Of a stretch of 64,000 nucleotides of DNA, positions 11,009 to 15,532 are shown one piece after another. Position 1 is the stretch's first letter. The number at the start of each line of letters is the position of its first letter. Position numbers and translations under genes: made by a program. The notes under the pieces are model-generated. The model ran no database searches and was not told the origin of the DNA. It saw only the letters and a program-made list of their open reading frames with translations. The stretch covers positions 496,001 through 560,000 of the forward strand of contig NZ_CAJZAH010000001.1 of NCBI RefSeq assembly GCF_914271545.1. The letters are read 5' to 3'. This stretch comes from Cupriavidus respiraculi (lineage in GTDB: Bacteria; Pseudomonadota; Gammaproteobacteria; Burkholderiales; Burkholderiaceae).

Positions 11009-11656
11009 TCACAGATCCGACTCCTCGCCGAACAGCCGATGCCGTATGGCGTAGCGCACGAGGGCCGCCTCGCTAGGAAGCTGCAGCTTGTCCATTAGCC
11101 GCATCTTGTATGTGCTGACAGTCTTGGCGCTCACGCACAGGGCGGCCGCAATGGCGGTGAGGGGCTCGCCCAGCACGAGCCGTCGATACACCTCCATCTC
11201 CCGGTCGGACAACCGCTCGTGCAAGGCTTCGTTCCCCTGGTCCTGCAGTCCGGTCGCGAGCTTCTCGGCCATCGCCTGGCTCACGTAGGTGCCGCCATTG
11301 GCGACTTTGCCGATGGCGTTCACCAGCTCCGTTGCGGCGCTCTCCTTGGTCAGATATCCCGCGGCTCCGGCGCGAAAGGCGCGGACGATGTACTGCTCCT
11401 CGGCATGCATGGTCAGGACGATGATGCGCAGCGACGGCTGTTCAGAGCGCAACTGCCGTATGAGTTCCAGGCCGGTGCGTCCCGGCATGGACAGGTCCAT
11501 CAGGATCACGTCGGCCGGGGTACTCCTGGCTACATGGGACACCTGGGCTCCGTCGACAGCTTCCCCAACCACTTCGAATCCGCCCTGACGCTCCAGAATG
11601 TGGCGCACGCCGTCGCGCACCACGGCATGGTCATCGGCGATCAAGACGCGAATCAT
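11009..11656 (-). CDS. NarL/FixJ-family response regulator
   Basis: A 215-residue two-component regulator. The receiver domain (about 1-120) has the acidic pair Asp8-Asp9, the phospho-acceptor Asp54 (ILMDLSMPG), a Thr in VLTMHAE and a Lys in YLTKES. A LuxR-type helix-turn-helix follows (about 145-210, LSDREMEVYRRLVLGEPLTAIAAALCVSAKTVSTYKMRL). Its first four bases overlap the end of the kinase gene (ATGA), so the pair is coupled. The context suggests it senses redox or respiratory state. Its target is unknown; the twin CTGA promoters at 13165 and 14455 are candidates. Confidence 0.93.
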   Translation of the reverse strand: MIRVLIADDHAVVRDGVRHILERQGGFEVVGEAVDGAQVSHVARSTPADVILMDLSMPGRTGLELIRQLRSEQPSLRIIVLTMHAEEQYIVRAFRAGAAGYLTKESAATELVNAIGKVANGGTYVSQAMAEKLATGLQDQGNEALHERLSDREMEVYRRLVLGEPLTAIAAALCVSAKTVSTYKMRLMDKLQLPSEAALVRYAIRHRLFGEESDL

Positions 11657-13005
11657 CTGTCTGTCCCCCCAGAGTTGACGCTTTCACGATCGGCTTCAGC
11701 GCCGGCATCACGGACCCATGCTCCGTCCCGGGCGTGGGATCGCCCGGGACGCGCTTCTGGCGTGGCGCGGGGGAAGCGGACCACCAGCCGAAAACCCTGC
11801 CCGGGCGTATGGCGCACCCATGCCCGCCCCTGCAGCAGCCTTGCCCGCTCCCGGATGCCAATCAGTCCGAACGACTTGCGCGTTGGGGTGGGGCGCCGCG
11901 CGCCATCCCAGCCGCAACCGTCGTCGGTGACGCTCAGCTCGTAGTCCTCGCCATCCCGGACCAGCTCGATGTCCACCGTGGTGGCATTGGCGTGGCGGAC
12001 GACATTGTTCAGCGCTTCCTGGACGATGCGAAATACCGCCACCGTGGTCGGCTCGCCCACGTCGTCCTCGTCGGCGGCCCGAATCGTCACGGTGATGCCA
12101 TAGCGGTTGGCGAAATCCTTGGCCAGCCACTGGATCGCCGGGACCATGCCGAGCTCGTCCAGCAGCGCAGGACGCAGATCGGCAGCGATCCGCCGGACCG
12201 AGCCCACCGTTTCGTCGATGACGCCGTGCATGGTATCGATCTGGTCCAGCAGCGCATCCGCAGCGCCGCTATCGCGCAGATCCGCCCCCAGCATTGCCAG
12301 GTCCATCTTCAATGCACTCAACCGCTGTCCCAGATCGTCGTGCAGCTCCCTCGCGATACGGCGCCTTTCATCCTCGCGTGACGCAATGACGCTGTCGGAT
12401 AGTTGCTGCAATTCCTCCCGCGAATGCCGCAGCGCGTCCTCCGCGCGCACCCTGTCGGTGATATCGCGCAACATCACCGTGTAGAGCTTTCCGCCGCCAT
12501 CGGCGGTCTGCGAAATGGAGGCCTCGATGGGAAACTCGACGCCGTCCGTCCGCAGCGCGTAGAGTTTGCGTTGCCGTCCCATCTCCCGCTCGGAGACACC
12601 CGTAACGCCGAAGCGCCGCACATGCTGTTCGTGCACGGTGCGGAACCGTTCGGGGAGGAAATCGCCAAGCGGGCGGCCGATGGCGTCGCCGGCGGTGCAG
12701 GCAAAGAGCTTTTCCGCCATCGGGTTGAAGAGGACGATGCGCTGGTCCGCATCGATCGAGATGATCGCCTCCATCGAGGAGCGGATGATGCCGGCCAGCC
12801 TGGCGGCATCCTGGTCCAGTCGTACGAGGCTGGGCGTCTCAGCGGCTGCACGCATGCGCTTGGCCCGCCATCTAAACCACGCCAAAGCGGACAGCGCAAA
12901 CATGGCAAGTGTCTGCTTGAGCGCTAACTGTCCTCGCCCGGTGGACAGGGATGCCGCTGGCGGCTCATGTTGTTCTGGGGTTCCCTCACTACCTTCCTTT
13001 GTCAT
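11653..13005 (-). CDS. PAS-domain sensor histidine kinase (HisKA_3 type)
   Basis: A 450-residue partner of the NarL-type regulator. It has one likely membrane segment near residues 29-46, a PAS domain (about 70-190, IISIDADQRIVLFNPMAEKLF, ending in the PAC motif RDITDRVRAEDAL), and a HisKA_3 dimerisation helix with His222 in IARELHDDLGQRLS. A HATPase_c domain closes it (about 320-415: N box EALNNVVRHANA, DDGCGWD, FGLIGIRERARLL). No haem- or flavin-binding residue can be assigned to the PAS domain from sequence alone. The start has a cggag site. Confidence 0.92.
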   Translation of the reverse strand: MTKEGSEGTPEQHEPPAASLSTGRGQLALKQTLAMFALSALAWFRWRAKRMRAAAETPSLVRLDQDAARLAGIIRSSMEAIISIDADQRIVLFNPMAEKLFACTAGDAIGRPLGDFLPERFRTVHEQHVRRFGVTGVSEREMGRQRKLYALRTDGVEFPIEASISQTADGGGKLYTVMLRDITDRVRAEDALRHSREELQQLSDSVIASREDERRRIARELHDDLGQRLSALKMDLAMLGADLRDSGAADALLDQIDTMHGVIDETVGSVRRIAADLRPALLDELGMVPAIQWLAKDFANRYGITVTIRAADEDDVGEPTTVAVFRIVQEALNNVVRHANATTVDIELVRDGEDYELSVTDDGCGWDGARRPTPTRKSFGLIGIRERARLLQGRAWVRHTPGQGFRLVVRFPRATPEARPGRSHARDGAWVRDAGAEADRESVNSGGTDR

Positions 13006-13164
13006 CGCGTCTCCGTCGTTCGAGATCGCGGCGTATCGCCAGCGTATAACCGGCGGGCCGGCACCTTAGAAACTAGTGCATTCCCCGCCGATGGAAAGGC
13101 CGTTTTGAGCGCAAGCCGTAACTTGCCACCCCGCGCTCTCGTGGATCGGCTGCGACGGTGGCGC

Positions 13165-13260
13165 GTCAGGGAACCCTGACGTCGGAATGGTGGACTCTGA
13201 CGCCAGTCTCAGCCGCTGCTGATTCTGGGCTGGAAGCGTGGCGACCATACTGCTTCCATG
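13165..13260 (+). promoter_or_regulatory. CTGA-motif promoter module, copy 1
   Basis: GTCAGG-N4-CCTGAC (13165-13180), then CTGA-N8-TCAG, then GCTGATT, a CATACT -10 and an ATG that starts six bases after the -10. The module aligns without gaps to 14455-14550 at about 67 of 96 positions. There is no good -35, suggesting activator dependence. The predicted start falls on or next to the ATG, so the mRNA may be leaderless. Confidence 0.65.
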
Positions 13261-13674
13261 ACATCCCTGCACAGTCCTCCGTCTTACGCCGTCTTCGTAC
13301 TAAGCGGCTCCCGGCTGCTTGTCAGCCGGCTGATCCGCACGCTGCAAACGATGGACGGCTTCCGGCTCATGGGACACGCCAAGGATGGGGTATCCGGGCT
13401 TCTCGCTATCCAAAGGGACCGGCCGGACGCGGTGCTCTACGAGTTGCCCGCATGTCGGCCTCTCCCGCTCGACGTGTTGAGCGCTCTGCGAGCACAGGAC
13501 GCCCCGCCGCAAGTGATCGCCTTGACGGACTCCATGGCGTTGGCTGTCAGGCAGGCCTGTCTGACAGCCGGAGCGACACACTGCTTCGACAAGACGCTGG
13601 AGTACGACCGACTCCGGGCGACGCTTTACGGATTGCGTATGGAAAAGCAGCGCGGACGGCTGCCGGCGCGATAA
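13258..13674 (+). CDS. Stand-alone degenerate receiver-domain protein
   Basis: A 138-residue protein with the receiver fold only and no output domain. Compared with true receivers, the acidic pair is gone (VFVLSGSRLLVSRL), and the phospho-acceptor position is Glu62 (DAVLYELPA) instead of Asp. The conserved Thr89 (ALTDS) and Lys111 (FDKTLEYD) remain. It therefore cannot be phosphorylated in the usual way and may be locked in an active-like or purely protein-binding state (inference). There is no ribosome site; the CTGA promoter module ends at its ATG. It is divergent from the two-component system. Confidence 0.75.
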   Translation: MTSLHSPPSYAVFVLSGSRLLVSRLIRTLQTMDGFRLMGHAKDGVSGLLAIQRDRPDAVLYELPACRPLPLDVLSALRAQDAPPQVIALTDSMALAVRQACLTAGATHCFDKTLEYDRLRATLYGLRMEKQRGRLPAR

Positions 13675-13789
13675 CGCAGTGCCGGGCACGGTGTGTCTCA
13701 GTCCGACCGCGCGAGCGTCTTGAACCCGCCGGGGCGGGCGCCCGGCCATAGGGCGGCACGCGAGGGGCCGCTTGTAATGTCGCGGAACG

Positions 13790-14212
13790 CTAGCCGCCAA
13801 CGCGGCGCGACTTCCATTCGCCATCGGCCTGCTTGCAGAACCAGCCGGTCCAGCGCTCCTCGCTGGTGCCGCGCCTGAGTTCGGTCGTCATCCTCCGGCA
13901 TGGCTGCCCCCGATCCGTTCTGCTTTCCAGTGCCGTGATGGTGGCGTGGATGGGGTCGCGTCTCCCCGGGTTCGGGGACGTCCATTCCATCGTGTCGCCG
14001 TCCGCCGTATTGGCGAGGGCCTTTCCGGCGGCCTCCGAGAAGGCGTTGGCCTCGGCCACGGTCATGGAGCCGACGACGGTATTGCGCATGTAGTTCCGCA
14101 GGAAGGCGTGGGCCGGTGCGCTCGCAATCGCGCTGGCCACAACCAGCGCGAGAACGGTGGATCTGGGCGATGCACTGATGTAGGTGAGGCGAAAGGCTTT
14201 GCGGTCCTGCAT
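13790..14212 (-). CDS. RT0821/Lpp0805-type surface antigen (17-kDa-antigen-like) protein
   Basis: A 140-residue exported protein. MQDRKAFRLTYISASPRSTVLALVVASAIASAPAHA is a Sec signal cleaved after AHA. The mature part has the family pattern: a helical stretch (TVAEANAFSEAAGKAL) followed by GDTMEWTSPNPG, then TDRGQPCRRMTTEL and WTGWFCKQADGEWK, with two Cys that may pair. It resembles the C-terminal domain of rickettsial 17-kDa surface antigens, normally in the outer membrane or periplasm. Start 14212 is chosen for its ggagggg site; the frame stays open 26 codons further upstream. The function is unknown. Confidence 0.65.
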   Translation of the reverse strand: MQDRKAFRLTYISASPRSTVLALVVASAIASAPAHAFLRNYMRNTVVGSMTVAEANAFSEAAGKALANTADGDTMEWTSPNPGRRDPIHATITALESRTDRGQPCRRMTTELRRGTSEERWTGWFCKQADGEWKSRRVGG

Positions 14213-14454
14213 GGAGCCCCTCCAGAGCGGTATGAGGATTGGCTGCCGGCAACGAAACGTGTGTCGCGGCGAGGATTCGATTCTAGACACCGCCCCGGGA
14301 TTTTTCGCGGTTGGGCCGAGGACAGTGCCTGGCCAAGCTGATTTCCAGGGCAGTCGTCGCCTGAGTCTATGGACCTTGGTCTGGCGCGGCGCGGACTAGC
14401 GCAAGCGCTCGCTTGCCGACGTGGCCCAGCAGTTTGCGCACGCGGTGCTCAGGT

Positions 14455-14550
14455 GTCAGGAAATCCTGACGCTGGCATAGCGCGCCCTGACGCGATTCTC
14501 AGTCCATGCTGATTTCGGGGGTGCATCACGCCGACGATACTGGGTTCATG
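14455..14550 (+). promoter_or_regulatory. CTGA-motif promoter module, copy 2 (ahead of fnr)
   Basis: GTCAGG-N4-CCTGAC (14455-14470), CTGA-N8-TCAG, GCTGATT and a GATACT -10, in exactly the spacing of copy 1 and again ending at an ATG. The 335 bases between the surface-antigen gene and 14547 hold nothing else I can identify. This is likely the fnr promoter, with a roughly 200-base leader that contains a 40-codon frame. Confidence 0.65.
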
Positions 14551-14670
14551 AATCGATCCATCTGGCTGGCACCTATGCCTTCTCGGCCGGAACAGTTGCC
14601 GGTCGATCGCTTCCCAAGCGCCGATGTCGCGTTCCGCGCGGGGTACAGGCCCCCGCGTGGGCGGATGTGA
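14548..14670 (+). CDS. Possible 40-codon leader peptide ahead of fnr
   Basis: The frame MNRSIWLAPMPSRPEQLPVD and 20 more residues starts at the ATG that coincides with the predicted transcription start and stops 76 bases before fnr. The only support is its position: the ATG is at the same place in the promoter module as the start of the receiver gene. There is no ribosome site and no homology I recognise. It could be a translated leader, or the ATG may be incidental. Confidence 0.3.
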   Translation: MNRSIWLAPMPSRPEQLPVDRFPSADVAFRAGYRPPRGRM

Positions 14671-14746: not shown

Positions 14747-15532
14747 ATGCTCGAGCCCATCGCACCATCCCATCAAAGGTCCGTCCCGGGGCCAGCTTTG
14801 GAAACGGGGCGCTTTGTCGATGCCGCGACCATGGACCGGGATCCCATGTCCGAGGCGCGTTGCCTCAGTTGCATCCTGCGCGAAAGCTGCATGGCGGCGG
14901 ATCTGGATCGCGCCGAGTTGCTGAAGCTGGACACGGTCGTTCGCAACGGGCGCAGCGTCCGGCGCGGCGAGACCCTGTATCGGGCCGGCGATCCGTTCCG
15001 CAGCCTGTATGCGGTGCGCGCCGGCTCGTTCAAGAGCGTGGTGACCCATCCGAGCGGCCGCACGCACGTCACGGGCTTCTATCTCGCTGGCGAGACGCTG
15101 GGCCTGGACGCAATCAGCACGGATTCGCACCGCTCCGATGCCATCGCCCTGGAGGACAGCGCCGTCTGCGTGGTGCCCTATCGCCTGCTCGAGGCCCTTT
15201 GCCTGGAGGTTCGGTCAATCCAGCAGTATCTGCACAAGATCCTCAGCGCCGAGATCGCTCGCGAGGCCGGCGTGATGCTGCTGCTGGGCAGCCTGAGCGC
15301 AGATCAGCGCGTCGCCGCCTTTCTCCTGAATATTTCCGCGCGGCATGCCGCCCGCGGCTACTCGGCGGCGGAATTTACCTTGCGGGCCACCCGCGAGGAC
15401 ATCGGCAGCTATCTCGGTATGACGCTGGAGACCGTGAGCCGCACCTTGTCACGCTTGCAACAGGCGAACCTGGTGCGGGTGGAGGGAAAGCGTATGCGCC
15501 TGATGGATATGGAGGCGCTGGATCGTCTGTAA
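14747..15532 (+). CDS. Oxygen-sensing Fnr/Anr-family transcriptional regulator
   Basis: A 261-residue Crp/Fnr protein. The N-terminus carries Cys39-x2-Cys42-x5-Cys48 and the sensor domain Cys141, an exact +19 offset from the four [4Fe-4S] ligands of E. coli Fnr (20, 23, 29, 122). The recognition helix keeps Glu228, Ser231 and Arg232 (TLETVSRTLSRL), equivalent to Glu209, Ser212 and Arg213, which read TTGAT half-sites. It should therefore be active without oxygen and bind the boxes found through this region. The start is fixed by ggagg. Its own promoter lacks an Fnr box and carries the CTGA module instead. Confidence 0.95.
   Translation: MLEPIAPSHQRSVPGPALETGRFVDAATMDRDPMSEARCLSCILRESCMAADLDRAELLKLDTVVRNGRSVRRGETLYRAGDPFRSLYAVRAGSFKSVVTHPSGRTHVTGFYLAGETLGLDAISTDSHRSDAIALEDSAVCVVPYRLLEALCLEVRSIQQYLHKILSAEIAREAGVMLLLGSLSADQRVAAFLLNISARHAARGYSAAEFTLRATREDIGSYLGMTLETVSRTLSRLQQANLVRVEGKRMRLMDMEALDRL

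Follow-up and report, generated by a model that had tools for sequence, protein, structure and literature searches.

Two copies of a probable activator-dependent promoter module ahead of fnr and a single-domain receiver gene in Cupriavidus respiraculi, with a GacA-like regulator as candidate binder

Promoters activated by BvgA are occupied by tandem dimers, with a strong distal site and a weaker proximal site at -35, arranged in helical phase. The targets of GacA, the response regulator of the GacS/GacA (UvrY/SirA) systems, are the csr/rsm small RNAs, while the lux boxes bound by quorum-sensing LuxR proteins have the form CTG-N10-CAG. According to the available part of one report, the GacA box is TGTAAG-N6-CTTACA (PMC8523701). 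The FixL-FixJ-FixK-FixT system of Sinorhizobium and Caulobacter includes FixT, a single-domain receiver described, in the accessible part of the source, as being under the control of the FixLJ-FixK cascade (PMC7078487). In Burkholderia dolosa, a fixK-lacZ fusion carrying 243 bp of upstream DNA needs FixLJ for its induction at low oxygen (PMC5234846, available part), and in the lxa locus of Burkholderia the low-oxygen genes BCAM0284-0292 include BCAM0287, which is named as a putative lxa regulator (PMC4981469, available part). An operator for the activation of fnr/anr in Burkholderiaceae, including the lxa-locus regulator gene, is not stated in the available parts of the literature. In the present study we describe a candidate for such an operator. 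It occurs twice within a window of 64 kb (the whole stretch of DNA analysed), and the reading that we favour, with a probability of about 0.75, is that the two occurrences are copies of one activator-dependent promoter, through which a kinase resembling FixL and a regulator resembling GacA would jointly induce fnr and the gene of a single-domain receiver.

The original prediction was of a gapless match between 13165-13260 and 14455-14550, at about 67 of 96 positions. Ungapped comparison gave exactly 67/96, with identity dropping to the background level on both flanks. The best ungapped 96-mers in ten first-order Markov sequences of 64 kb reached 55-56 matches; across the real window seven diagonals, including this pair, scored at least 67. 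When as many as 3 mismatches were tolerated, the 28-mer CTGACN6CTCAGN4TGCTGATT was found at two places in the window, compared with 0.03 expected. The palindrome GTCAGG-N4-CCTGAC, which both copies had been said to share, is exact in each of them and occurs nowhere else in the genome. When one mismatch was allowed, the genome contained 10 such places versus 11 for a reversed-pattern control, and the palindrome by itself was rejected as a regulon marker because of this lack of enrichment. Overlapping GTCAGG/CCTGTC/CTGAC repeats were also seen at 13546-13565, inside the receiver gene. With either of two models of the complete module (the R1 model and a Burkholderia-type model), only the two strong sites were found in this genome, the next matches having E values of 0.096 and 0.59; a larger regulon in this genome was therefore rejected.

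Judged by sequence comparison, the paired stretches are a genuine promoter module. For the numbering of its parts we placed the predicted transcription start 7 nt after the -10 hexamer. The distal box, centred at about -85, is an 18-bp palindrome with the consensus TGTCAG-N6-CTGACA in Cupriavidus and Ralstonia; it reads CGTCAG-N6-CTGACG in the receiver copy (13164-13181, plus strand, as all module elements) and TGTCAG-N6-CTGACG in the fnr copy (14454-14471), the latter being recognized in both the self-alignment of the window and the family scan. A middle half-site, CTGACG, was identified from alignments of relatives at 13197-13202 and 14487-14492 (CTGAC at -61 to -57, centre -59). It is followed by a degenerate proximal box, TCTCAG-N6-CTGATT (13207-13224 and, from the 28-mer search and the alignment, 14497-14514), which is centred at -42.5 and overlaps a weak, TTTCG-like -35 region. 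The hexamer (C/G)ATACT of the original prediction is CATACT in the receiver copy (13246-13251) and GATACT in the fnr copy (14536-14541), i.e. a NATACT -10 element at -12 to -7, with predicted starts at 13258 (the A of an ATG) and 14548. Successive half-sites are spaced by 10, 21, 12 and 10 bp in the alignment and would thus lie near the same face of the helix. The proposed pairing CTGA-N8-TCAG was ruled out as a unit by the family alignments, which instead show two boxes, TGTCAG-N6-CTGACA and a degenerate TCTCAG-N6-CTGATT, as the units and CTGAC as a half-site between them.

The analysis of related genomes started from a pattern covering only the proximal part of the module, which was searched for in 60 Cupriavidus genomes; 20 stretches then taken yielded 23 sites. 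ATACT, absent from the selecting pattern, is present at the identical place in 21 of these sites, and the distal box, likewise not selected for, at the identical spacing in 17, with an eighteenth (L051) in which it lies 5 bp closer. The two sites that miss ATACT are L051, where it is replaced by GTACT, and L047, which also has no distal box; both were excluded from the gapless alignment, which joins the other 21 sites with the window pair (the near-copy L046 was left out of alignment A1). No distal box is present at four of the 23 sites, located before other genes: those of LRAT-type acyltransferases (L055, identified with Pfam, and L050, identified by eye), a pyrimidine-nucleoside-phosphorylase-like gene (L057:11921, Pfam) and an unnamed gene (L050:7444). 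The R1 model, built from sequence only, detected the module at E ≤ 1e-3 in 26 of the 60 Cupriavidus genomes and in 49 of 299 genomes of the family, representing 7 of 25 genera. At the same threshold the Burkholderia-type model recognized one to five sites in each of 60 out of 61 Burkholderia genomes. In Burkholderia, Paraburkholderia, Caballeronia and Trinickia the half-sites are mostly TGTAGG/CCTACA and CCTAC.

These alignments also bear on the notion that CTG-N10-CAG (CTGAC-N6-CTCAG), which is found in both window copies, serves a quorum-sensing LuxR protein as a site of the lux-box type. In 24 aligned Burkholderia-type modules the corresponding columns are mostly CCTAC and CTTCA, so that the CTG...CAG arrangement has been lost while the module has been kept, and we give this explanation a negligible chance. 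We consider it nearly as improbable that FNR itself binds the module in an autoregulatory manner: one copy precedes fnr and CTGATT is close to the FNR half-site TTGAT, but the conserved pairs are TGTCAG/CTGACA, and none of the five FNR boxes in the window (TTGAT-N4-ATCAA, up to 1 mismatch) falls in either copy. The five FNR-type boxes (at 2177, 2236, 3449, 3547 and 9811; 0.34 expected) are possible targets of the fnr product.

A scan of the whole family, performed with one base of play in the spacing and with TGT/ACA and palindrome conditions for selection, identified 111 distinct sites: 42 with a receiver gene behind them, 42 with fnr but no receiver behind, and 27 belonging to other genes or due to chance. 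The module precedes fnr in several genera; in the Ralstonia stretches inspected it does so with the kinase gene placed divergently alongside. In many relatives a single module stands ahead of a receiver-fnr pair, an arrangement that, on comparative grounds, supports the joint control of these two genes envisaged in the original prediction. Conservation in related genomes, on which that prediction depended, was thus observed for both the elements and their spacing, within Cupriavidus as well as in further genera of the same family.

Several additional features were noted in these sites. The proximal part of the module accompanies LRAT-type genes at L050:13131 (minus strand), L055:8505 (minus strand), L097 and L101, and at L162, L164, L166, L328 and L329 (L055 and L164 identified with Pfam, the rest by eye). 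The Burkholderia examples carry a distal box of the TGTCGG-N6-CCGACA type, perhaps read by a paralogous regulator. Boxes of other types among the scan sites comprise TGTCGG before genes in L162, L164 and L166, and mixed forms in L172, L175, L176, L178 and L185. In Burkholderia, a second module may follow about 3-5 kb past the first (L247:12352, L259:12375, L282:9588). Burkholderia-type modules also share a conserved CTTCC between the distal box and the middle half-site (columns 23-27 of alignment A4), an element also present in near Cupriavidus relatives (L188-L190).

The receiver copy ends at the start codon of a gene (13258-13674, plus strand) for a degenerate single-domain receiver of 138 aa (Pfam Response_reg, 2e-7, 31.6 bits, cut-off 30.2). 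The prediction placed an ATG at the end of each copy. Both are present, and the one at 13258 is indeed the start of the receiver ORF, being its first ATG, GTG or TTG, with no other ahead of the first strand of the receiver; the one at 14548, however, is not the start of fnr. At all 42 receiver sites, the window included, the ATG lies 61 nt (23 sites) or 62 nt (19 sites) past the first base of the middle half-site. Since it thereby coincides with the predicted transcription start or follows it by 1 nt in 42/42 cases, the receiver mRNA is probably leaderless. At the sites with fnr and no receiver, an ATG occupies this place in 7 of 42 (the window and L045 among them) and is absent from 35 of 42, for which reason the ATG was rejected as a general element of the module. 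Leaderless mRNAs are numerous in C. metallidurans CH34, where they account for 4.67% of primary starts (PMC7563307, available part). This strain carries the linked system, and its predicted starts on NC_007974.2 are 1126216 (plus strand) for fnr and 1048461 (minus strand) for the receiver gene. The predicted fnr start does not appear in the available main texts of the C. metallidurans start-site studies, nor does the predicted receiver start in the available main text of one of them. The aligned Cupriavidus receivers contain no phosphate-accepting Asp (the window protein has Glu), and one of them, L046, scores below the Pfam cut-off (20.3 vs 30.2). On the Burkholderia side the Asp is mostly retained, L242 having Glu. 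The receiver protein, used as a query against the genome contigs, revealed no relative.

The fnr gene encodes 261 aa (14747-15532, plus strand; NCBIfam Fnr, 1.2e-63, 214.7 bits, just under the cut-off of 228) and most likely starts at 14747, which is preceded by GGAGGA. A 40-codon ORF with no family match (14548-14670, plus strand) begins with the ATG closing the fnr copy, exactly where the fnr mRNA is predicted to start; it may be an upstream ORF or a relic. In the nearest relatives, as judged by the regulator (G020, G022, G038, G049 and G056), one module lies ahead of the receiver gene and then fnr. The window differs in that a small minus-strand gene intervenes (13790-14209; weak match to a 17-kDa surface antigen, 25.5 bits, cut-off 26.6) and fnr carries a module of its own. 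Among 37 modules the two window copies are each other's best match, at 67/96; the mean identity of the 666 pairs is 57.2, and 81 pairs reach at least 67. A duplication of the promoter, leaving a relic ATG, would be the simplest account of the window. From here it is a short step to the view that the likeness reflects nothing but the passive copying of a stretch of promoter, with no common activator, and the mutual best match, the receiver-type ATG of the fnr copy and the single module of the nearest relatives all agree with it. Duplication is likely, yet the functional elements have been retained while the remainder diverged, and the same module is found in other genera; we therefore regard duplication without a shared activator as very unlikely.

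The candidate activator named in the original prediction is the NarL/FixJ-type (GerE-type) response regulator encoded at 11009-11656 (minus strand), with the recognition helix KTVSTYKMR. Its best NCBIfam match is UvrY/SirA/GacA (NF007018; 183 bits, under the cut-off of 280), and it scores 88 bits against the FixJ model NF006900 (cut-off 255). In the 60 Cupriavidus genomes, identity to this regulator shows a clean gap: it is at least 69% in 29 genomes and does not exceed 61% in the remaining 31. The module was found in 23 of the 29 genomes with the regulator versus 3 of the 31 without it (Fisher 5e-8), a co-occurrence partly due to mere linkage; the regulator and kinase genes adjoin many modules, although in B. 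cenocepacia some 9.5 kb separates the module from the gene of the regulator. The three genomes with a module and no orthologous regulator are G023, G028 and G041. Local inspection revealed further modules in G001 (where it is weak), G022, G038 and G057. In G017 the regulator is present with no recognized module, and in G002 it is accompanied by a single weak match (E 0.019, model scan only).

A different regulator might nevertheless act here, chiefly the FixJ-like protein (G000:C2:406123-406710), by analogy with the action of B. dolosa FixLJ on fixK. Such a protein is encoded in all 60 genomes of the genus (best score per genome 232-236 bits, in every case below the cut-off of 255), the fixK-lacZ result cited above speaks for activation of this kind, and in G023 (L186, G023:C7:31000-43000) the module, receiver and fnr are retained with a truncated kinase gene, the orthologous regulator being gone. 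A protein present in 60/60 genomes does not, however, track a module that occurs in about half of them and follows the linked regulator; being universal, it cannot account for that distribution. In addition, the box is similar to that of GacA, and it is the linked regulator whose helix agrees with it. We consider the FixJ-like protein an unlikely activator, though one that retains a real minority chance, and read G023 as a natural loss of the regulator.

The agreement between helix and box is evident in 66 of the 111 distinct sites, the remaining 45 having been dropped for want of a receiver gene or fnr behind them or of a regulator in the locus; the dropped sites include the boxes of other types in L162, L164, L166, L172, L175, L176, L178 and L185, and false matches in coding sequence. 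In 66/66 linked sites the variable helix residue agrees with the left half-site. Regulators with Met (STYKMR) are accompanied by GTCAG (30/30), those with Thr, Val or Ser (STYK(T/V/S)R or STHKTR) by GTAG (32/32), and those with Ala (STYKAR) by GTC(A/G)G with CCTAC as the right half (4/4). In a tree of 109 regulators, 44 rows of which have no recognized module with a receiver gene or fnr behind it in the same locus, the box-linked Met regulators form one clade (100/99) and the Ala regulators a nested clade (100/98); the 66 agreements therefore reflect two joint changes of helix and box, not many more. The Val and Ser residues arose without a change of the box, and the agreement applies to sites that had been selected by the TGT/ACA and palindrome conditions. 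The linked regulator is thus favoured as the binder by four lines of comparative evidence: linkage, co-occurrence, likeness to the GacA box and agreement between helix and box.

Next to the regulator gene lies that of a PAS histidine kinase of the HisKA_3 type (11653-13005, minus strand). Its PAS domain aligns with the haem-PAS domain of Bradyrhizobium FixL (1dp6; E 1e-12), including the histidine which we take to be the haem ligand and which is conserved in 89 of 100 kinase segments. Against the FixL family as a whole (NF041777) the kinase scores 54 bits, far under the cut-off of 850. The B. pyrrocinia locus L282 contains, in order, genes for universal stress proteins, the regulator, fnr, an alcohol dehydrogenase and a cytochrome c, with the module between regulator and fnr; a search for the kinase gene in this locus gave no match. 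Low-oxygen control of the module is likely, because the kinase PAS aligns with the FixL haem histidine and the gene order of L282 matches that of the low-oxygen lxa genes. The operator described here is not stated in the available part of the lxa-locus paper (PMC4981469), nor is it given in any title or abstract among the literature matches listed.

In the circuit that we propose, the PAS kinase, with its FixL-like sensor domain, would phosphorylate the GacA-like regulator, dimers of which would bind strongly at the 18-bp box at -85. The half-site at -59 would assist binding to the weaker box at -42.5, over the -35 region, and the bound regulator would bring in sigma-70 RNA polymerase, the promoter itself having a good -10 element (NATACT) and almost no -35 element. 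As a result, fnr and the receiver gene would be induced together, the receiver from an mRNA beginning at its own AUG and fnr from an mRNA with a leader, and the receiver may feed back on the kinase. The sequence, its conservation and near-fixed spacing, the linkage and the agreement between helix and box are observed; we infer the binder, the start sites, the oxygen/redox signal and the receiver feedback. A broader proposal, which we hold at even odds, is that such a circuit operates throughout Burkholderiaceae: fnr and a receiver brake would be controlled, via a rigid three-site promoter, by a FixL-like kinase together with a regulator that resembles GacA and not FixJ. Operator and helix residue would have changed together (TGTCAG with Met, TGTAGG with Thr, Val or Ser, and a mixed, asymmetric box with Ala), and the mRNA of the brake would be leaderless, so that the promoter fixes the position of its start codon. 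Because the operator is defined, a candidate regulator is named and helix residues are paired with predicted operator bases, the proposal lends itself to direct testing; the receiver gene, which in several genera has its ATG where transcription is predicted to begin, would be a clean case of a gene whose start codon lies at the promoter.

Compared with the described systems, the module as predicted follows the same plan as BvgA promoters, with unrelated half-sites. The distal box shares the geometry of the GacA box, an 18-bp palindrome TGTnnG-N6-CnnACA, from which its consensus differs in one base per half (TGTCAG or TGTAGG here). The linked regulator has GacA (UvrY/SirA) as its best, though sub-cut-off, family match; in contrast to GacS/GacA, its predicted targets are fnr and the receiver gene and its kinase is a PAS-HisKA_3 protein. 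The B. pyrrocinia genes, identified by gene order alone, match BCAM0287 (CRP family) and BCAM0288 (response regulator) in the lxa table of PMC4981469 (available part). Likeness to FixL-FixJ-FixK-FixT extends to the FixL-like PAS domain, the NarL/FixJ-type regulator, the predicted FNR-family target and, as with FixT, a single-domain receiver behind the same type of predicted promoter as fnr; this receiver may act on its kinase as FixT acts on FixL. Regulator and kinase, however, fall far short of the FixJ and FixL family cut-offs (88 vs 255 and 54 vs 850 bits), and a separate FixJ-like protein is encoded elsewhere in the genome. If the proposed circuit is correct, the FixLJ-FixK-FixT arrangement has been re-invented here with a regulator of a different family.
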